From an uncultured Erysipelotrichaceae bacterium (GTDB taxonomy: Bacteria; Bacillota_I; Bacilli_A; RF39; UBA660): 53,354 bases of DNA. The first letter of the stretch is position 1, and each line of letters opens with the position of its first letter. Below are positions 750 through 11,199 of this stretch, one piece after another. The translations under genes and the position numbers were made by a program. The stretch is from NCBI GenBank assembly GCA_902793375.1, contig CADBDE010000002.1, positions 79,810-133,163 on the forward strand, in the 5' to 3' direction. The notes beneath the pieces are model-generated. The model was given only the letters and a program-made list of their open reading frames with translations. It did no database searches and was not told where the DNA came from.

Positions 750-1604
750 TTAATTTTTCATTTCAATTTCTCTTTCATCTACATATTGATAGTTTAAAGC
801 ATTTGCATTAGTAACTACACTCTCACCTAGTTCACTTTCCAAATCTTTTCTTGCATTTCCAGCAATTTTACCACCACGTCTTGCTACATCTATATTTTCA
901 TTTAAACCCTTTGGGTTTTTCTTTTTGGCAATTTCTCTTGTTGCTATTTCTCCTAAATCTGCAAGTGCTACTTCAACATCAGTCATATTATCTCTTAATG
1001 ATTCTTTCCTAAGGCCTTTAAATGATTTATATTGTTTTGCAGTCATGCCAGACCATTCTTTATAAATCTCATTAGTTAGAATTGCATATTCTTTTGATTC
1101 AGTTATTCCACCATCTTTCCATACATCAGTAAGTTGTTTTCTATCCTGAATTCCTTTAATTCTTTTTGCAATCCAGTTTTCATCATAACCTTTAGCTCTA
1201 TATAAGTCTATCGCTCTTTGTGCCGCTAATGAAGGATCAAATGTTTCATCTATTCTCTCACTTCCAAGTTTTGCAAGCCATTGTTTTATTGGCTCTGCAT
1301 TTTTACTAGGAATAGATTCGATAATTCTAAACATTCCTTCTATATCAACAACATCAGTCATACGATATTTTCCATCTTGTGCTTTTAATTTCAAAGCGTG
1401 ACAATTTGTCACGGTTTCATTTCCTTCTTCTTTTAAACGTTGTTTTAATTTTCTCCAATAGGCTTGTTTATCCTTACTCTCAGAAACAACTCCAACTAAA
1501 TCAACAACACTTATAAAGTATTTTTCTTGTTCTTTGTCCCAAACAGTTCTAATTGTTTCATTATTAAATATTTTATTTACTAAGTGCATTTTATCTTGAT
1601 TCAT
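750..1604 (-). CDS. BRO-N/DinD-like phage-type regulator
   Basis: A 284-residue protein if started at ATG 1602-1604, which has a perfect AAAGGAGG site upstream; an earlier in-frame start at 1637 lacks one. The N-terminal ~110 residues (FNNETIRTVWDKE, YFISVVDLVGV, YWRKLKQRLKEEG, MTDVVDIEGMFRIIESIPS) match the BRO-N domain of phage antirepressors and DinD proteins. The C-terminus has the RRGGKIAGNARKDLE segment typical of DinD-like members. Such proteins are DNA-binding regulators carried by phages and integrative elements. It sits at the edge of the mobile segment, beyond a palindrome array and the serine recombinase, so it is probably cargo of the same element. Family assignment is confident; function is not. 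Confidence 0.8.
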   Translation of the reverse strand: MNQDKMHLVNKIFNNETIRTVWDKEQEKYFISVVDLVGVVSESKDKQAYWRKLKQRLKEEGNETVTNCHALKLKAQDGKYRMTDVVDIEGMFRIIESIPSKNAEPIKQWLAKLGSERIDETFDPSLAAQRAIDLYRAKGYDENWIAKRIKGIQDRKQLTDVWKDGGITESKEYAILTNEIYKEWSGMTAKQYKSFKGLRKESLRDNMTDVEVALADLGEIATREIAKKKNPKGLNENIDVARRGGKIAGNARKDLESELGESVVTNANALNYQYVDEREIEMKN

Positions 1605-1685
1605 AAGATACCTCCTTTGTTGTATATATTGTATCAAACATTTGTTCTTATTTCAACACTTTTACAAGTAATTTATTAATAATAA

Positions 1686-1989
1686 TCTTCTCGACAACTT
1701 GTCAGAAAGTTTAACTTCGTCGCCACTTGCGACAAAGTTAGTTTTTTTAAAAATATTAATAGAATCAAAGCAATAATTATTATTCCTTCAAATTTAACAT
1801 TGCAACTTCTGTTCAATTTGGTCAGAAGTTTTATATAAACTTCGACCAAATTGGTCGTAAGTTTAATTATCCTACTTCCATTCAAGTGGGTGGGAAGTTA
1901 TAGTACAATTATGCTAACTTTGGTTCAAATTGGACGGAAGTTAATTAATCATTCATATTAGTAACTTGTGCTCAAGTTGGTCACAAGTT
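1686..1989. repeat. Array of seven ~27-bp imperfect palindromes
   Basis: Units lie at about 1686-1711, 1713-1739, 1804-1830, 1838-1863, 1873-1899, 1916-1942 and 1963-1989. Each begins with AACTT (or a close variant), has a centre such as CAAATTGG or CAAGTTGG, and ends with AAGTT. Each is a dyad whose arms differ between units but stay complementary, for example GTCGC/GCGAC at 1719-1735 and TTCGACC/GGTCGTAA at 1841-1860. Compensatory arm changes imply selection on pairing or dyad binding. The array fills the 475-bp gap between the BRO-like gene and the recombinase. I see no coding potential there; an open frame at 1676-1885 is chance. Confidence 0.75.
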
Positions 1990-2054: not shown

Positions 2055-2077
2055 GAAGTTAGTAATAAACTAACTTC
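2055..2077 (-). terminator. Hairpin just downstream of the recombinase gene
   Basis: GAAGTTAGT (2055-2063) and ACTAACTTC (2069-2077) form a perfect 9-bp stem with a 5-nt loop directly after the recombinase stop. The T-run is weak, so it may instead be a relative of the neighbouring palindromes. Confidence 0.4.
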
Positions 2078-2079
2078 AA

Positions 2080-3666
2080 TTAATCAATATCATTTAATAA
2101 ACTGAATTTATAAAATATTTCAATGTTTCTATCTTTATCAATAACTATTTTATCAATAATAGATTGTAATAATTCTCTATTCGGATTATCTAGATTTATT
2201 AATTCTTTAATTTTATCTTCATAGTTTTTCATTTCTTTTGATGACTCTTTTTTCTTTTTATCCAATGTTTGTAGTTCTTCTATTCTAAATTTAGATTGAT
2301 TTAGTAATATTTCTGTTTCTCTTGATAATCTTTTATAAGTATCCTCTGAAATATTACCTTTAAATTTATCATCATATAGCATATCAATTTTAGCATTGTA
2401 TTCTTTAATTTTTTTATTCAAAAAATTAATTTCTTCTGTTGTGCTTTCTTTAGAAGTATTTTTATCATTTATAAGTCGTGCTAATGATTTAACGTCAATC
2501 TCATCTAAATATTTCTTACAAGTACTTTTAATAGTACTTAGTAATGCTTCTTCTAATTTATCATAAGGCATAAAATGTGGATAACATAAATGTCTTCTTG
2601 GATCCCTAGAATATCTATTACAATTAACAGTCCAATAATCATGATTTTTTCGGTAAGTAACCGTTAAAGTATTGCCACATTCCTGACAATAAATAAGATT
2701 TTCAAATAATCTTTTTTCTCTATCAGTTTGCGTTTTTTGTTTTCTTTTAACATTACTTTGAACTTTATTAAAAACTTCTTTACTAACTAGTGGTTCATGA
2801 GTATTCTCTACAATTATCCATGCTTCTTTATTAAGAGCAACTTTTTTTTGAGATTTATATGATAATTTAGTTTGTACATTTTGCACCATATCACCTGTGT
2901 ACATTTGATTTTTTAATATTTTCTTTACTGATGAAACAGTCCATATAGGATTGAATTTTTGTTTTGAACCTTCTTTCTTTTTGTATAAACTTGGTGTTGG
3001 ATATTTACAACCATTGAGATAACTTGCAATATCACTTACACTTACACCATTATTTGCCATTTCAAATATCTTTTTAACAATAAAGGCAGTATCAGGATTA
3101 GGTAATAAATGTCCTTTATCTTCTGGGTCTCTCATATACCCAAAGCTAGTCTCACTTCCAATAAATTTTCCATCTTCTTTTTTATTTCTTAAAATAGAAC
3201 GTATCTTTTTAGAATTATCTCTACTTGTCATATCATTAAATACTGATTTAAAAGGTATCATTTCATTTCCAACATTATTTAAAAAAGTATCTACTTGATC
3301 AAGTACAGCAATATATCTAACTTTTTTTAAAAGAAAATACTCATCTACATAATAACCACAAGTAACATAATTTCTACCAAGTCTAGATAAATCTTTTGTT
3401 ATAACACAGTTTATTCTACCATTTTCTATATCTTCAAGTAATCTTTTAAAGCCTGGTCTATCAAAATTAGTACCAGTAAATCCATCATCAATATATTCAT
3501 CGACAAAGGTAAATTCATTTTGTTTTACAAAACTCATTAATAAATTTCTTTGATTAATAATACTTTCACTTTCTGATTCATAACTTTTATCAGAATCTGC
3601 TTCAGATAATCTTATATATAATCCTACTCTATAGTAACTAGGGTGTTGTAATATAGTGTTATACAC
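2080..3666 (-). CDS. Large serine recombinase (site-specific integrase)
   Basis: A 528-residue protein starting at GTG 3664-3666 with AAGGAG 8 nt upstream. It has a resolvase domain at ~12-160 with the nucleophile Ser21 (GLYIRLSEAD) and the catalytic stretch DLSRLGRN at ~92-99. A recombinase domain follows at ~170-300, then a zinc ribbon with Cys327, Cys330, Cys349 and Cys361, then a coiled coil at ~410-495. The length and order match TndX/TnpX-type enzymes that excise and insert integrative elements through a covalent phosphoserine intermediate. The gene neighbours replication-like, defence and TnpV genes and is probably the integrase of that segment. All catalytic landmarks are present, so it looks functional. 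Confidence 0.95.
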   Translation of the reverse strand: MYNTILQHPSYYRVGLYIRLSEADSDKSYESESESIINQRNLLMSFVKQNEFTFVDEYIDDGFTGTNFDRPGFKRLLEDIENGRINCVITKDLSRLGRNYVTCGYYVDEYFLLKKVRYIAVLDQVDTFLNNVGNEMIPFKSVFNDMTSRDNSKKIRSILRNKKEDGKFIGSETSFGYMRDPEDKGHLLPNPDTAFIVKKIFEMANNGVSVSDIASYLNGCKYPTPSLYKKKEGSKQKFNPIWTVSSVKKILKNQMYTGDMVQNVQTKLSYKSQKKVALNKEAWIIVENTHEPLVSKEVFNKVQSNVKRKQKTQTDREKRLFENLIYCQECGNTLTVTYRKNHDYWTVNCNRYSRDPRRHLCYPHFMPYDKLEEALLSTIKSTCKKYLDEIDVKSLARLINDKNTSKESTTEEINFLNKKIKEYNAKIDMLYDDKFKGNISEDTYKRLSRETEILLNQSKFRIEELQTLDKKKKESSKEMKNYEDKIKELINLDNPNRELLQSIIDKIVIDKDRNIEIFYKFSLLNDID

Positions 3667-3883: not shown

Positions 3884-4386
3884 TTATTCCTCCTCTTTTT
3901 TAAATTCTTCTAATAATTTATTCAGTTCTTCAAGTTCTTCTTCAGTTGGTGATTCACTTTTAATTAGTTGTCCATTCCAATATTCATTACCCAACTCATC
4001 CTTGTAATATATTTTATTTATATTACTTTTATTATATTGTTTAAAGTTTGATTGAATACTAGAATTAAAGTTTTCTTTAATACCCTGTATCTTATTCTTT
4101 AATACATGGTCAAGTGTAATTGTACGTTTAGAATTATTAGTACTATCTTTTCATATTTCAAATTAATATAATTTAAAGAGGCGAGATGATTAATACTTTT
4201 AGATATTGTTTGCTTACTATATCCATGAATATTCATAAAATAACTATTAGTAGCCCAACAATATTTTTTATTCTTACACAAAGAAATTATGTGTAGCAAT
4301 AATAACTTTTCTAAAGATGATATTCTACTATCACTTAATACCGATATTGGTAAAATTGGATTTATAAATTCTTCCATAGTATCCAT
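3884..4386 (-). pseudogene. Frameshifted replication-type helix-turn-helix gene
   Basis: The 5' part, from ATG 4384-4386, reads as an HTH_36/replication-initiator-like domain (ISSLEKLLLLHIISLCKNKK, CWATNSYFMNIHGYSKQTIS, KSINHLASLNYINLKYEK). The frame then drifts to an early stop at 4099. In the next frame the reading continues as DSTNNSKRTITLDHVLKNKI through YYKDELGNEYWNGQLI to an acidic tail ending at TAA 3884-3886. One extra A in the AAAA run at 4148-4151 would restore a single 167-residue protein. This gene type commonly sits near integrases in ICEs and plasmids. It is either a real slippage mutation or a sequencing error. Confidence 0.7.
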
Positions 4387-4535: not shown

Positions 4536-5771
4536 TTACTTTTTATAATTTATCAACTTATCTTTATTTTTATTTATAAATTCCATTAATGTACCATTTT
4601 TATATGCATCAAATATTTTTCTTTCACATTTTATTTGTTCAACTCTTTGAACTTTTACGTGAAAAGCATAATTCTTTTTATTCTTATCTATTACTTCCTT
4701 TATATGTTTCCTATTCTTTTTTGTTGATGATGGTTCTACATATTCTATTGTATTAAACATCCCATTCAAAGAAATAAAACATTTCCACTTTTTAATGTAT
4801 TCAAATTCATTTTTAGGTTCGCCCATTGAAATAAACTTATTAAACAGTTTATTCATTTTTGAATGCATCTTTTTTGAAGCTCTTACGCAATATCTTTTAA
4901 CTGTTAATCCTGTAATTAACGGTAATATTAATTGCTCATTTGGCCCTAATTCTTTTTCAATGTCAATTATCTTAATTTTTTTCTCGCTAATTGAATGATT
5001 ATAATCTTTTAAGATACTACTAACTTCAGCAACTAAATCATTAGGATCAAAAGTACTATCCTTATAAGAAAATGATAAATCATCAACATATGTACTAAAT
5101 CTACAATTATATTTTATAGCCACATTATTTATTTTATCAAACATTTCCTTATAAGATAGAAAGCTGACTATAGGACTAGTTGGATATCCCTGTGGAATAA
5201 TCCTCGCTCCAGTAGATGGAGAATCAATAGGCACAGTAACAATTTTTGCCATCCTATCTGCAACATCACTTTCATAAACAATTATATTGCCATCTTTATC
5301 TTTTTTCTCTTTTACCATATGTAATCCAGACTCTTTAGCAAAAAAATTCTTAATTTGTTTAAATTTACAATTTGGAAAAAAGCTATTTATATCTAATAAA
5401 ATAAATTTTGTGTTACCTATATGGTATAAAGCATTTCTTTTATAATCACTTTCTTTTTTCGAAAATAAATATTCTGGCATTTTTATTTGTGATAAATAAA
5501 AACATATTTGCCTTAATACTTTTTTATGCTTATCACAACTATCACTAAATTCTCTATACTTGCTTGGTGAATAATCAGTTGGTTTTTTATCAAATATCTC
5601 TTTAGTTACCTTAGATTGATAGAATGTTCTTTTTTTATTTAGAAAATGATAATCAGGATTTCTTATCTCTTTTGTATGTACTTTTAAATCTTTATTTGAT
5701 AATAATTTAGCTAATTTTCTTTTACTATAACATGCATATAAACTATTTTTATAAACTGTATTTGTTATCAT
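4536..5771 (-). CDS. Retron-type reverse transcriptase
   Basis: A 411-residue protein starting at ATG 5771 with GAGGTGACAAT upstream. Motifs in order: NALYH at 113-117 (retron NAxxH), DINSFFPN at 127-134 (motif A, catalytic Asp127), IPQGYPTSPIVS at 192-203, YVDD at 228-231 (catalytic pair Asp230/Asp231), and ITGLTV at 286-291 matching the retron VTG motif. Having both NAxxH-like and VTG-like motifs separates it from group II intron and DRT/Abi enzymes. It is longer than typical retron RTs (~310-340), with extra sequence after VTG that is rich in Lys/Glu. Retrons make a branched RNA-DNA from an upstream ncRNA and act in phage defence. A small membrane protein and a structured region lie directly upstream. 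Confidence 0.85.
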   Translation of the reverse strand: MITNTVYKNSLYACYSKRKLAKLLSNKDLKVHTKEIRNPDYHFLNKKRTFYQSKVTKEIFDKKPTDYSPSKYREFSDSCDKHKKVLRQICFYLSQIKMPEYLFSKKESDYKRNALYHIGNTKFILLDINSFFPNCKFKQIKNFFAKESGLHMVKEKKDKDGNIIVYESDVADRMAKIVTVPIDSPSTGARIIPQGYPTSPIVSFLSYKEMFDKINNVAIKYNCRFSTYVDDLSFSYKDSTFDPNDLVAEVSSILKDYNHSISEKKIKIIDIEKELGPNEQLILPLITGLTVKRYCVRASKKMHSKMNKLFNKFISMGEPKNEFEYIKKWKCFISLNGMFNTIEYVEPSSTKKNRKHIKEVIDKNKKNYAFHVKVQRVEQIKCERKIFDAYKNGTLMEFINKNKDKLINYKK

Positions 5772-6336: not shown

Positions 6337-6366
6337 ATTATATCATATTTTTTATTTATATTTTCA
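6337..6366 (-). promoter_or_regulatory. Promoter for the retron ncRNA/RT unit
   Basis: TATAAT (minus strand, 6342-6337) is preceded 18 bp upstream by TGAAAA (6366-6361). The -35 overlaps the last codons of the upstream specificity-subunit gene. Transcription would start near 6330. Confidence 0.45.
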
Positions 6367-7494
6367 TCTTTCTGCAATTAATTGTGAAATTTTTAATAAA
6401 TTATCATGTTTTTCATCCATTATTTCATTTATAGTTAATTTTTCTAAAATTTTCATATATTTTTCTATAAATTCATAATTAATTTTGTTATTAACAAATG
6501 GTAATACTATTTCCACATTTTTTATTACATCTTCATTAAATGATGTTTGTCCCCACGAAAAATTTTGAAATGCCTTTCTCATTGCAGTTATAAAATATAA
6601 CCCTAATCGTCTATTTAATTTACCATTTTTAAATTTCATTACTTTTATCTTATCACCAGTAAAATAATGTTCCTCTTGATAAAAAATTGTAGCAGTATCT
6701 TGACCAAATGAAATAGTTTCCTTTGAATTCAAATACATTTCATCTTCAGTTATATATCCCTTAATACCATTATTAATGTTACTTCTAACTACATATGGAT
6801 ATTTACCATCAAATTTAACTGTATTAGCATTAAATTTCTTTCTTGAAGATACTACATCAAATAATTCCCCAATTCTAACATTTTTATATTCTATTTTATT
6901 ATTATTTATCATATCTAATAGATTCTTGTCGTCAATTGTAATGTCTAAATTATTTAAATTCATCTGATTTTTATATTTGTTTTTAAGTTCATCATGCTCT
7001 TTTTTTATAGAGATCAGTAGTTCTTTTTGCATATCGTTTATGTATTGTTCCATATAGTTAAAGTCTAACTCTCCTAAATCATTTATAGGTAATAAAACAA
7101 CCATGTCAGCAACGATTTTACGATTAAATTTTGTTGCGTAATCAAATCTACCTTTAGCTAATTTTTTAAAAAGTGTTAGAAAATATAATAAAGGTTTTTC
7201 AGTCCATTTATCTTTATTGCTTTTTGGATATAATCCTTGAATATGTGAATATCCAATATAGTCATTAGGTTGATAAAATATTGCATCACCAGTAGTTGTA
7301 TCACTAAACGTAATCATATTTCCCTTTTCTGTAGCTGCTAATGACGTATAACCACCAATTCCATTATTTATACTTGTATTTGTTATAACTGGTATTTTCC
7401 CACTTGTTTTAAATAGATTATTATTTGTCAAATCATATCTTTTAGTTGGATGAATATCAAAAAGTTCTCCAATTTTATAATTTTTATATTCCAA
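6364..7494 (-). CDS. Type I/BcgB-like restriction-modification specificity subunit
   Basis: About 376 residues. TTG 7492-7494 is chosen because GGAGGTG lies 8 nt upstream; the longer frame from 7509 would contain that site. The protein has two homologous halves, one starting EYKNYKIGELFDIHP and the other at ~205 starting EYKNVRIGELFDVVSS. Each is a target-recognition domain followed by a helical spacer, as in HsdS/Methylase_S. Conserved NNGIGGY and NNGIKGY segments mark the two TRDs. It lies 15 bp after the methylase-nuclease gene. Together they resemble BcgI, in which subunit A cuts and methylates and subunit B (341 aa) reads a bipartite DNA target. Confidence 0.88.
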   Translation of the reverse strand: MEYKNYKIGELFDIHPTKRYDLTNNNLFKTSGKIPVITNTSINNGIGGYTSLAATEKGNMITFSDTTTGDAIFYQPNDYIGYSHIQGLYPKSNKDKWTEKPLLYFLTLFKKLAKGRFDYATKFNRKIVADMVVLLPINDLGELDFNYMEQYINDMQKELLISIKKEHDELKNKYKNQMNLNNLDITIDDKNLLDMINNNKIEYKNVRIGELFDVVSSRKKFNANTVKFDGKYPYVVRSNINNGIKGYITEDEMYLNSKETISFGQDTATIFYQEEHYFTGDKIKVMKFKNGKLNRRLGLYFITAMRKAFQNFSWGQTSFNEDVIKNVEIVLPFVNNKINYEFIEKYMKILEKLTINEIMDEKHDNLLKISQLIAER

Positions 7495-7509
7495 TTGAAA
7501 CACCTCCAA

Positions 7510-9513
7510 CTAATAATAAAATTTAACTTTCCAATCAAGATACTCTTTAATGGTATTTTTAAAGTCTTCTTCGGTTGGTACCGTATTAATTTTTTTATGC
7601 TGAGAAAAAGTCCAGTCATCGCCATTTAAGCTTATTGAATCTTCTATATATTCTTCTTCTGAGAAATAATTTAAGTAACTTTTACCATATAAAACCAAAT
7701 TAACTATTTCATCATATCTTTCATATGCATTATTAGTATTTTTCAAATTAACATCTTGTCCAGATTTTTTTCTATTTTGTCTAGTATATCCATCATTTGT
7801 GAAATCAATAAATTTGACAATTTGTTTTTCATTATGTGGAATACCAATATTAAATATATAAATTGCTGTTTGTACACCTGCTTTTCCTTTAAATATGTCA
7901 GGCATATGAATACTTGCTAGTAACGAATTATTTTGCAAAAGTCTTTTAGTATATGGTATACCAATACCACTACCTGCATTTTCTTGAATTAATATTGCAG
8001 CTCTACCATTTTTCATTTTGCTCAATGCTTTTTCAACGAAAATGAAGCCTTTTCCTGGAGCAGAATATGGTGGATTCAATAAAAATACATTAGCGGGAAA
8101 ATCTTCACCATTTAATTCCCCTTGCTCGTACTTACCGTCAAATTCAGTCAAACTATCTTTATGAATAATATTTGAAGATCCATCACCCATTAAAATCATA
8201 TTTAAAACTGCTAATAAATAAATATCAGATCTTTTTTCAATACCAAGTAATTGTTGATATTTAATTTTAGATATTTTTTCTTTTAATTCTTTTGGACTTT
8301 TTATTCTTTCTTCAGCATCTCTTATCATCAATTTCATTGATGAAATTAGGAAACCTGCAGAACCTACTGCATAATCCCAAACATAGCTGTCTTTATTAAC
8401 TTGAGCCAATTTTGCCATCAATTCAGTTACATATCTAGGTGTCAATACTACATCATTTTTATCACTATCAGGTATATCAACCCAAGCATTAAGTACATTA
8501 AATAATTTACCAGTAAAATCCAAATGTCTTGCAGATGTGAATATAGGCATTATTTCATTCTTTACAATTGTATAAACTTTTTTTAATTTACTTTCTCCAT
8601 TTATCGGCTTCCATAAATCTGAATATATAAATACTCTTGATAAATCATTAATAATCATATGTTTTTTTTCTTGAGGCAAATTTCTTTCTTCTAAAAAAGA
8701 ATCAATTTTATTTATAATCACTGTACCATCATTTACTTTACTTCCAATTTCTCCTTTTAAATCATTTATTTCAAGTGGGGATACTTTGTTATCCACCCCT
8801 AGACCTGCCATAATTAATCCTGTCACCAATTCAACCCTTGATCCAACTGATATTTTTAAGTCATCCTGCATAACCTGATTTAAATTTTTCAATTTGATTT
8901 CAATATCATTTTCAACTTCTTTAGACTTTTTTTCTATTTCTTCTGGAGTCAAATTTAATTTATTAATTCTATCTATTAATTCATCAATATTGTTTGGAAG
9001 TAAAAATGTTAAATCATCATAATCATCAATCTTTTTAGGAATAAAATAATTTTCAGCAGATACATAATATACCCCAAGTTCAAGTTTAATCTTATCTAAT
9101 TGATAATATCCATTAAGTCCTATTGCAATTACCTCTTTATAACTTTCAGTATGTTCTATTATTGCATCAGCGTAATGAATGGCACCATTAACAGCATATT
9201 TATTAATATTACTAAAATGTGGACTCCCATCTTTAGTCTTATTTTCAATTTCACCAGATGAATTTAGTTTTATAAAATCTCCTTTTTTACCTTTTACTTC
9301 TATCATTACAGGTATATGTCGTAAATCTTTTGTTTCTATAAATAATTTAATATCTGGAAAATTCTTGCCAGAGCCTCCACTTTTTGATGGGGCAATTTTT
9401 AATGCTTTTTCTATTTCTGAGTTAATAACTTCAGTTTTTGTATAATATTTTATCTCTGCTAATTGTTTTTTTGCAATATCTTCTACTTGTTCCTCTATGC
9501 TACTTTTACTCAT
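7510..9513 (-). CDS. BcgI-like fused endonuclease/N6-adenine methyltransferase
   Basis: A 667-residue protein. The N-terminus carries a PD-(D/E)xK nuclease: Pro53-Asp54 (NFPDIKLFIE) and Glu72-x-Lys74 (VMIEVKG). A helical connector follows to ~320. The N6-adenine methylase domain has motif I DYAVGSAGF at 380-388 and motif IV NPPY at 480-483. One chain can therefore both cut and methylate, with DNA choice from the S-like subunit downstream. BcgI subunit A has the same order and about the same size (637 aa). The start ATG 9511-9513 follows AAGGAG inside the upstream ribbon-helix-helix gene, so the genes are translationally coupled. All key residues are present. Confidence 0.9.
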   Translation of the reverse strand: MSKSSIEEQVEDIAKKQLAEIKYYTKTEVINSEIEKALKIAPSKSGGSGKNFPDIKLFIETKDLRHIPVMIEVKGKKGDFIKLNSSGEIENKTKDGSPHFSNINKYAVNGAIHYADAIIEHTESYKEVIAIGLNGYYQLDKIKLELGVYYVSAENYFIPKKIDDYDDLTFLLPNNIDELIDRINKLNLTPEEIEKKSKEVENDIEIKLKNLNQVMQDDLKISVGSRVELVTGLIMAGLGVDNKVSPLEINDLKGEIGSKVNDGTVIINKIDSFLEERNLPQEKKHMIINDLSRVFIYSDLWKPINGESKLKKVYTIVKNEIMPIFTSARHLDFTGKLFNVLNAWVDIPDSDKNDVVLTPRYVTELMAKLAQVNKDSYVWDYAVGSAGFLISSMKLMIRDAEERIKSPKELKEKISKIKYQQLLGIEKRSDIYLLAVLNMILMGDGSSNIIHKDSLTEFDGKYEQGELNGEDFPANVFLLNPPYSAPGKGFIFVEKALSKMKNGRAAILIQENAGSGIGIPYTKRLLQNNSLLASIHMPDIFKGKAGVQTAIYIFNIGIPHNEKQIVKFIDFTNDGYTRQNRKKSGQDVNLKNTNNAYERYDEIVNLVLYGKSYLNYFSEEEYIEDSISLNGDDWTFSQHKKINTVPTEEDFKNTIKEYLDWKVKFYY

Positions 9514-10160: not shown

Positions 10161-10460
10161 TTAATAAAATTTCTTTAATATCAATGGATTATCTTTTACT
10201 ATTTTTAAATTATATTTTATTCTTAATATCTTATTTATAGATGGTATTAATTTATCTATGTCACATCTTACATTAAATATATCTATTGCTGAATTAATAT
10301 GATTATAAAGTGGTGCTTTAGAAAGTACTCTCTTATAAAAATTATCTGCTATATAAAAGGCTACTACATTGGGTATTACAAATTCTTTCAGATAGTTATC
10401 ATAATTAATACATACAGGTAAGTATATTCTTTCAAATTCTTCATCAGTAATATCACACAT
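10161..10460 (-). CDS. Hypothetical protein next to tnpV, 99 aa
   Basis: The frame starts at ATG 10460 and overlaps the 3' end of the TnpV-family gene by 8 bp, so it is translationally coupled. The protein begins MCDITDEEFERIYLPVCINY and is mixed helical with no signal or membrane span. I do not recognise it. The coupling suggests that it belongs to the same mobile unit as tnpV. Confidence 0.6.
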   Translation of the reverse strand: MCDITDEEFERIYLPVCINYDNYLKEFVIPNVVAFYIADNFYKRVLSKAPLYNHINSAIDIFNVRCDIDKLIPSINKILRIKYNLKIVKDNPLILKKFY

Positions 10461-10803
10461 AGATATACTCCTTTAAAATTATTTCTTCTACTGCGTTTTT
10501 TATATTATTCATTTTACTTACCCAAAGCATTTGATTATCTTGTTTTAATTTTTCATTAATATTTTCTTTTTCAGCAAGTTCTTTAATTAAATTTTGCACC
10601 TTCTCCATAACAGTAATGTCTATATCATGTAGATATTCATTTAAATTGTCATTCATTAGTAAATCAAAGTATAATCCAAGTTTATATTTTTTAATATATT
10701 CTAGCCTTAATAATCCATATTTTTCTATATTAAATTGAACTTTTTCTTTTAATATTAAATTTGGTAATAAATAGTCACCTTTTTTAGTGTAACTAATATT
10801 CAT
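10453..10803 (-). CDS. tnpV: TnpV-family transposon protein
   Basis: A 116-residue protein. It matches the TnpV family of Tn4451-type elements along its length: an opening YTKKGDYLLPNLIL, the basic core KYGLLRLEYIKKYKLGLYFD, the acidic helix YLHDIDITVMEKVQNLIKEL, and the signature QMLWVSKMNNIKNAVEEIIL near the C-terminus. TnpV is a cytoplasmic accessory protein of mobilisable transposons with no defined biochemical role. It overlaps the 99-aa gene downstream and lies 33 bp from the truncated amidase, which suggests an element boundary here. Confidence 0.9.
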   Translation of the reverse strand: MNISYTKKGDYLLPNLILKEKVQFNIEKYGLLRLEYIKKYKLGLYFDLLMNDNLNEYLHDIDITVMEKVQNLIKELAEKENINEKLKQDNQMLWVSKMNNIKNAVEEIILKEYIYV

Positions 10804-10835: not shown

Positions 10836-11150
10836 TTAATTGTTATACTTAATATTTGTTACACTTTGACCTTCGGCACCCCCTGCATTTATGTGATTGG
10901 AAAGTATTATTACGTCTTCATCATTACCAAATGAATTTAACATTCTTCTTAATCTTTCAGTTCTTCCAATATCTTCATCATCTGTTCTTGTAATTGCTAC
11001 AGGAACTCCTAGTTCTTGTAATCTATTATAAATATAGTTTGCTGCTTGCAAGTTAAAATCTTTTTCTTTAATATTTCCGTTAATTGCACCAGGATCACTT
11101 CCACCATGTCCTGCATCAACAACTACTCTTTTAGTAGTATTTCCATTCAT
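10836..11150 (-). pseudogene. 3'-truncated N-acetylmuramoyl-L-alanine amidase
   Basis: The start is ATG 11148-11150 behind AGGTGATTATA. About 104 residues of an Amidase_3 (CwlD-like) domain are present: zinc ligand His in DAGHGG, Glu in KEKDFNLQ, and His in ILSNHINAGG. Family members continue another ~60-70 residues with the catalytic Glu, but here the frame stops at 10836 after NIKYNN. The break faces the TnpV gene, so the 3' end was probably lost on element insertion or deletion. Two more remnants of the same gene start lie at 30985-31041 and about 37240-37310. It has no signal peptide. Confidence 0.75.
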
Positions 11151-11199
11151 TATAATCACCTATAGTAGTGTATGTATATTTGCTATTTATGTTAATAAA

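Follow-up and report, generated by a model that had tools for sequence, protein, structure and literature searches.

A candidate array of orphan parS-like sites with several ParB specificities, next to the integrase of a defence island in an Erysipelotrichaceae genome

Results

Host element and gene neighbourhood

In the window, by which the whole analysed stretch of 53,354 nucleotides is meant, an element of about 11 kb is inserted in an Amidase_3/LysM gene which is intact in relatives. The N-terminal half of the interrupted Amidase_3 gene is found at 10836..11159 on the minus strand and contains one end of the element, GTTACACTTTGACC, at 10858. The C-terminal half falls outside the window, immediately to its left, with the second junction some 235 bp before the first window position, and the other element end is GTCAAAATGTAAC.

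The genes of the element are all located on the minus strand. The order starts with TnpV (10453..10803), which is conserved near the end of the element away from the LSR, followed by the restriction-modification (RM) genes, encoding a IIG-like REase/N6-MTase (7510-9513) and a specificity subunit (6364-7509), and by a reverse transcriptase (4536..5771) with the defence-type RT_VI as its best PADLOC match. Then follow an HTH_36 protein (4099..4386), kept beside the integrase in relatives, and the amidase-specific integrase of the element, a large serine recombinase (LSR; 2080..3666) with Resolvase, Recombinase and Zn_ribbon_recom domains. The array described here (1685..1989) separates the LSR gene from the gene for a Bro-N protein (PADLOC PDC-S13; 750..1637, probable ATG at about 1603), which is cargo carried beyond the array and is followed by one more gene. 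No parB was present in the window element or in the unit-bearing relatives, so that the array has no cognate parA/parB there, and no matching ParB was detected in the window genome at E<=1e-30.

A separate hairpin, GAAGTTAGTAATAAACTAACTTC, occupies 2055..2077 directly after the LSR stop. It is conserved with the arms GAAGTTAGT...ACTAACTTC, has a polarity opposite to that of the array units and is not one of them.

The seven-unit array

The original prediction of seven related dyad units beside a serine recombinase was borne out, all seven being re-found within 1685-1989 as parS-like dyads to which no strand is assigned. These are unit 1 ATCTTCTCGACAACTTGTCAGAAAGTT (1685..1711), unit 2 AACTTCGTCGCCACTTGCGACAAAGTT (1713..1739), unit 3 AACTTCTGTTCAATTTGGTCAGAAGTT (1804..1830), unit 4 AACTTCGACCAAATTGGTCGTAAGTT (1838..1863, 26 bp), unit 5 TACTTCCATTCAAGTGGGTGGGAAGTT (1873..1899), unit 6 AACTTTGGTTCAAATTGGACGGAAGTT (1916..1942) and unit 7 AACTTGTGCTCAAGTTGGTCACAAGTT (1963..1989). 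Their start spacing is irregular as first described, with figures of about 28, 91, 34, 35, 43 and 47 bp, the earlier values being one base off in places. The inner arms differ between units and pair within units, though not perfectly: in units 1, 3, 5, 6 and 7, Watson-Crick pairing fails at 2-4 of the inner positions per unit. What had been called a TTGG-like centre is better described as a dyad half-site ending ...CA-nnn-TG. The array was rightly said not to be CRISPR: identical direct repeats and uniform spacing are absent, and no Cas domains were found among the element proteins scanned. A search of the array region for Rfam/RNA families gave no match.

The loose pattern AACTT-n6-AAnTT-n6-AAGTT with 3 mismatches was not enriched in the whole window (33 found vs 34 expected). 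On a combined score for outer motif and inner pairing, five stretches in the 53 kb reached at least 14, and all five were inside the array. The array is unusual as a cluster, not as individual matches. One isolated match elsewhere in the genome (C3:129341) was discarded as a terminator-like site after an AbiE-like gene.

The nature of the symmetry was investigated in 61 distinct units from related loci, for the choice of which only the outer and central bases counted. Pairing at inner positions 6-10 was seen in 68% of cases, compared to 31% with the right arms swapped among units (z=13). Mismatches in the LSR units displayed no G-T excess (43 G-T vs 37 A-C), and on the parB sense strand of the palindromes described below the numbers were 8 G-T vs 23 A-C. 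This absence of a G-T bias does not support selection for an RNA or single-strand hairpin. The symmetry is that of a double-stranded DNA dyad, with a variable part that is not the same in all units.

Distribution in related elements

By LSR similarity, 42 related loci were collected, nearly all of them at the same amidase site; the array and its relatives were read from MAG contigs. A unit scan of the 598 kb of related loci found units only just 3′ of the LSR stop, plus a few scattered weak matches, and a stricter unit score gave 2 matches in 598 kb of shuffled DNA from the relatives. Every relative with at least 89% LSR identity and a covered 3′ flank had units 3′ of the LSR, and relatives with 89-97% LSR identity had one to six. 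In the group with 57-60% LSR identity some elements had a single unit, L050 had nine and others had none, and no units were detected beside LSRs of <=51% identity at the same amidase site. In single-unit elements the unit is located 3-11 bp after the LSR stop codon, and 2-9 units were counted in others. An array of this kind thus recurs in related elements, at the same place 3′ of the LSR; neither absence from close relatives nor unpaired arms, which were to count against it, was observed. No LSR relatives were found in viral contigs, where a pattern scan gave 120 stretches, almost all with a single site.

The genes beyond the array differ from element to element, and other cargo can take the place of Bro-N in elements that keep the array. 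The units themselves decay and change shape fast between close relatives (L043/L044/L045). In L044 a unit 294 bp after the LSR stop is a hybrid, with the left arm of window unit 7 and a native right arm, which points to recombination or conversion among units. A crossover at the centre as the means of unit exchange fits some such hybrid arms but was set aside as not needed.

A single amidase gene serves as the integration site for the whole LSR clade with its variable defence cargo (L039-L079). The cargo types comprise Type IIG, EcoRI-like, TdeIII and Type III RM systems, a Gabija-like pair in L048 and the RT_VI in the window.

The palindrome inside parB genes

A half-site identical to that of the array, AACTTCnnnnCA, recurs as a palindrome in the parB of ICE/plasmid-type ParABs of Bacilli and Clostridia. 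An exact pattern search of 386 genomes of the family revealed, besides the LSR flanks, palindromes inside parB genes. The well-paired matches examined outside LSR flanks were all in parB, with the exception of one family match (L102/L283), and in a search of the phylum 6 of the 6 well-matched sites examined were inside parB. The exceptional match, at position 411 (G164:C38), is a lone well-paired unit, AACTTCCCGACAAATTGTCGGGAAGTA, that belongs neither to a parB nor to an LSR flank, and its contig carries a transposase-like gene.

From family genomes, plasmids, phages and viral contigs 60 distinct parB genes were gathered. In most of them the motif HQG is closely followed by a near-perfect palindrome, the centre of which is 3 bp long. 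The half-site logo of the 45 distinct palindromes from these 60 genes is AACTTC-variable-CA, the same as in the array. These palindromes were found by palindromicity alone, and their pairing rate of 87% is thus partly given by construction, which does not apply to the coevolution tests below. In two ParB-bearing records, phi-SsuZKB4_rum and one E. faecalis plasmid, no palindrome copies beyond parB were found, and one site is apparently all that the natural system requires. An earlier description of parS inside this parB family was not found in the open-access literature, and some may have been missed. In the genes of L082-L349 the parS-like palindrome is in the coding sequence, so that site and reader are inherited together.

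The ParBs are clear ParB/Spo0J homologues, and the fold of a model obtained with AlphaFold2 (mean pLDDT 83) matches ParB, Noc and KorB. Relative to the Spo0J and Noc structures, the palindrome-encoded segment is an insertion in the DNA-binding domain. In the model, the palindrome-encoded residues 140-151 form a loop with pLDDT<50, predicted to be disordered. A long helix at 120-139 precedes this loop, and the HTH, with its helices at 154-162 and 166-177, comes directly after it.

In L107, L093, L253, L285 and L286 the reading frame of parB breaks into two precisely at the palindrome, and in the two examined (L107 and L085/L285) an in-frame slippery A_AAA_AAG or A_AAA_AAC is located just upstream. 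These sequences make a programmed -1 frameshift in ParB probable, for which the palindrome would be the stimulator. The palindrome was also considered as an insertion target for another mobile element and rejected, as none of 26 parB matches in the family was interrupted there and the split ones were frameshifts.

Coevolution of the palindrome with the ParB recognition helix

For the palindrome to be parS, the specificity residues of ParB must be tracked by the variable bases. Among 43 ParBs the similarity of the half-sites was not related to overall ParB identity (rho 0.04). Permutation analysis of 34 non-redundant ParBs, with the residues encoded by the palindrome itself set aside, showed the strongest association for columns of the recognition helix S-x-x-Q-V (z 6.7 and 5.2), with a third helix column at z 4.0, and a column just after the palindrome was also associated (z 4.9). 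The associated column 236 aligns, in our own alignment via Spo0J matches, with Caulobacter R173, an experimentally proven ParB/Noc specificity residue (PMC7383237).

The recognition code that emerged for half-site bases 9-11 is approximate and has exceptions, e.g. L252. Helices of the type xNQ go with CCC, (A/S/Q/E)RQ with GCC, and GR(Q/K), ERT or YKT with GAC. Glu goes with CAC or CAA, Asp with CGC, Thr/Ser with ACC, TCC or CCC, and Ile with TTC. Prediction of the half-site by the most similar helix from a donor less than 60% identical was correct for 30 of the 43 ParBs, compared to 15 of 43 from the rest of the protein and 11.5±2.3 with shuffled helices. In an out-of-sample test of the code 23 of 34 half-sites were right, and six of the misses came from three genes in which the scan had missed the palindrome (L249, L250 and L260). 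The synonymous third base of a Gly codon in the palindrome likewise tracked the helix, being GGG with an Asn helix and GGC with an Arg helix (p=9e-4), so that the coupling acts on the DNA and not on the peptide. Since the arm tracks the recognition helix and not overall identity, also at synonymous codons, the intragenic palindrome is very probably parS.

Array half-sites and ParB classes

Dependence of the site on specificity residues is evident for the parB palindromes, and for the array by common half-sites only. The window half-sites CTCGAC, CGTCGC, CTGTTC, CTGACC and CCCACC are each identical to a parB half-site of a different helix type. CTCGAC, the left half of unit 1, is that of the L100 parB (helix SGRK, GAC class), and CGTCGC in unit 2 that of L270 (helix SKDQ, CGC class). 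Unit 3 has CTGTTC as in L267 (TTC class) and CTGACC as in L082, L086 and L237 (ACC class), and unit 5 has CCCACC as in L240 (helix SLTQ, ACC class). Both sides of unit 4 are of the ACC class, the classes of unit 6 are TTC and TCC, and those of unit 7 are ACC and CTC, the latter with an identical half-site in no parB seen. Several array units are asymmetric hybrids.

Of the 64 distinct half-site 6-mers in all LSR arrays, 19 were identical to parB half-sites, compared to 8.2±2.4 expected for independent positions (p<2e-4) and 11.9±2.5 under a Markov model (p=0.004). Most of the specificity classes seen are represented in L050, which alone displayed GAC, CAC, ACC, CGC, TTC and GCC. In genome G006 an array containing a CCCACC unit occurs together with a parB of identical half-site. 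Several array half-sites, e.g. GTGCTC, had no match among the ParBs collected here. The first palindrome after the LSR stop in L050 (11576-11602), TTCTGTGCAATATGCACAGAA, has a half-site in common with the parB palindrome of L322 (helix SQDQ), and a further specificity class TGC is possible from this pair of sequences.

Discussion

The coevolution of palindrome and recognition helix gives good reason to regard the units as sites for ParB-family proteins, and we hold this part of the reading with considerable confidence. Taken as a whole, the array probably represents orphan parS-like sites for the ParBs of other mobile elements, by which the island would capture or disturb their partition. The sites would cover several ParB specificities, of ICE/plasmid-type ParABs from gut Bacilli and Clostridia. 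The earlier idea of sites for a dimeric element protein is in keeping with this as regards the dimeric kind of protein, but not as regards a protein of the element itself, the best-supported candidates being the ParBs of other elements with several specificities.

That the units instead serve a non-ParB protein of the element or host, such as the LSR, Bro-N or HTH_36, and merely resemble parS, is suggested by their strict linkage to one LSR clade and by the conservation of HTH_36 beside the LSR. We consider it very unlikely, as one protein should not tolerate arms that vary between units and yet are symmetric within them, the array stays where Bro-N gives way to other cargo, and the half-site vocabulary is common with parB beyond chance. 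The LSR att arms at the amidase junctions, GTTACAnTTTGAC and GTCAAAnTGTAAC, are moreover unrelated to the units, and this, together with the unit-free LSRs of <=51% identity at the amidase site, also leaves the proposed recombinase accessory sites without support. A resemblance to loxP/rox or attC was dropped on the parB evidence, and the spacing differs.

Strong arm covariation is also what would be expected of hairpins, whether these form in RNA (3′ UTR or regulatory RNA) or in single-stranded DNA during its replication or transfer, the latter as originally suggested, and in the parB subset with the slippery site before the palindrome an RNA role is plausible. For the units an RNA hairpin role is unlikely, and hairpins of either kind are a highly improbable account of the array, given that G-U pairs are not in excess over A-C as they would be if tolerated on one strand, that no known RNA family matches, and that parB arm sequences follow the recognition helix, which is inexplicable by structure alone. 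Least credible, and already disfavoured, are non-functional palindromes kept symmetric by template-switch (quasi-palindrome) mutation; the quick decay and reshaping of units between close relatives would agree with such a process, but it accounts neither for the conservation of outer and inner bases in the half-site nor for the confinement to two contexts or the helix tracking. A further alternative accepts the units as ParB sites and makes them a sensor, in which a foreign ParB would load on the units and slide over the LSR gene, so that an arriving ICE or plasmid switches the integrase towards excision or silencing. The units always follow the LSR directly on its 3′ side, within a few base pairs of the stop codon in the simplest elements, ParB-family proteins spread from parS and can repress, with KorB among the fold matches, and the excision of SGI1 is timed by helper signals (PMC10954446). 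We regard sensing as rather unlikely, though less so than the preceding alternatives, because the sites are 3′ of the LSR gene and not at a promoter, and because up to nine units of many classes exceed the needs of a switch.

Partition hijack or interference, for which by analogy the chances appear slightly better than even, is favoured over sensing as the function of the putative parS-like sites. ParB dimers from a co-resident ICE or plasmid, supplied in trans, would load on the matching unit. By comparison with SGI1, the loaded units would give the excised island a partition site, and/or would titrate and misdirect the partition complex of the other element, i.e. act as centromere-type incompatibility. 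With many specificities in one island, the action could extend to many unrelated partition systems. Several points speak against this reading. Any partner must come and go, as no matching ParB was found in the window genome at the threshold given above, some array half-sites lack a match among the ParBs collected, and several units are asymmetric hybrids. The element is normally chromosomal, and in that state one array copy may titrate little ParB.

More tentatively, and as something we would rate a little below even, the array could be a broad-spectrum centromere decoy that interferes with, or rides on, the partition of any entering ICE or plasmid, as an anti-plasmid counterpart of the anti-phage cargo. 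Interference with competing plasmids is attractive since the islands carry restriction systems, the Gabija-like pair and other defence genes. Self-stabilisation after excision, or sensing of a helper by the spread of its ParB over the LSR gene, would suit this anatomy as well. To our knowledge, partition hijacking is otherwise known only from SGI1 and IncC plasmids. If the proposed reading is true, it would extend to a mobile defence island lineage of gut Firmicutes, with the added principle that one element holds sites for many partition systems. The analysis also provides a testable recognition code between the ParB helix and the probable parS within parB, and the array contents might list the ParBs that an element has met.

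Among known systems, the window element resembles Tn4451-type LSR elements in its LSR integrase and TnpV, but differs by its fixed amidase target, its defence cargo and the parS-like array, of which we know no equivalent in Tn4451. Some IMEs have a ParB, e.g. the streptococcal tet(O) fragment (reviewed in PMC5704250). The tet(O)-bearing record MN270279 encodes a ParB of the family described here, with the palindrome inside its gene and a serine recombinase nearby; in IMEs of this type parB is present, whereas the window element has the sites only. As in ParABS/parS and Noc-NBS, the site described here would be a dyad read by the HTH of a ParB fold with the specificity in the recognition helix (PMC7383237). 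It differs in its length of 27 bp, made up of 12-bp arms around a 3-bp centre, compared to about 16 bp, in its location inside parB at a predicted disordered loop by the HTH, and in a variable arm that differs between ParBs. The closest likeness in function would be to SGI1, whose parS mimics DR1 and DR2 bind the ParB of IncC plasmids, stabilise SGI1, and destabilise and help expel the helper plasmid (Muranyi et al. 2024, PMC10954446). Both are integrative elements without a ParABS of their own that carry palindromic parS-like sites. SGI1 has two near-identical sites and one helper, whereas the arrays of the LSR clade have up to nine sites of several classes, and the array in the window lies beside an LSR on a Firmicutes defence island without a known helper, where its role is proposed by analogy with SGI1.
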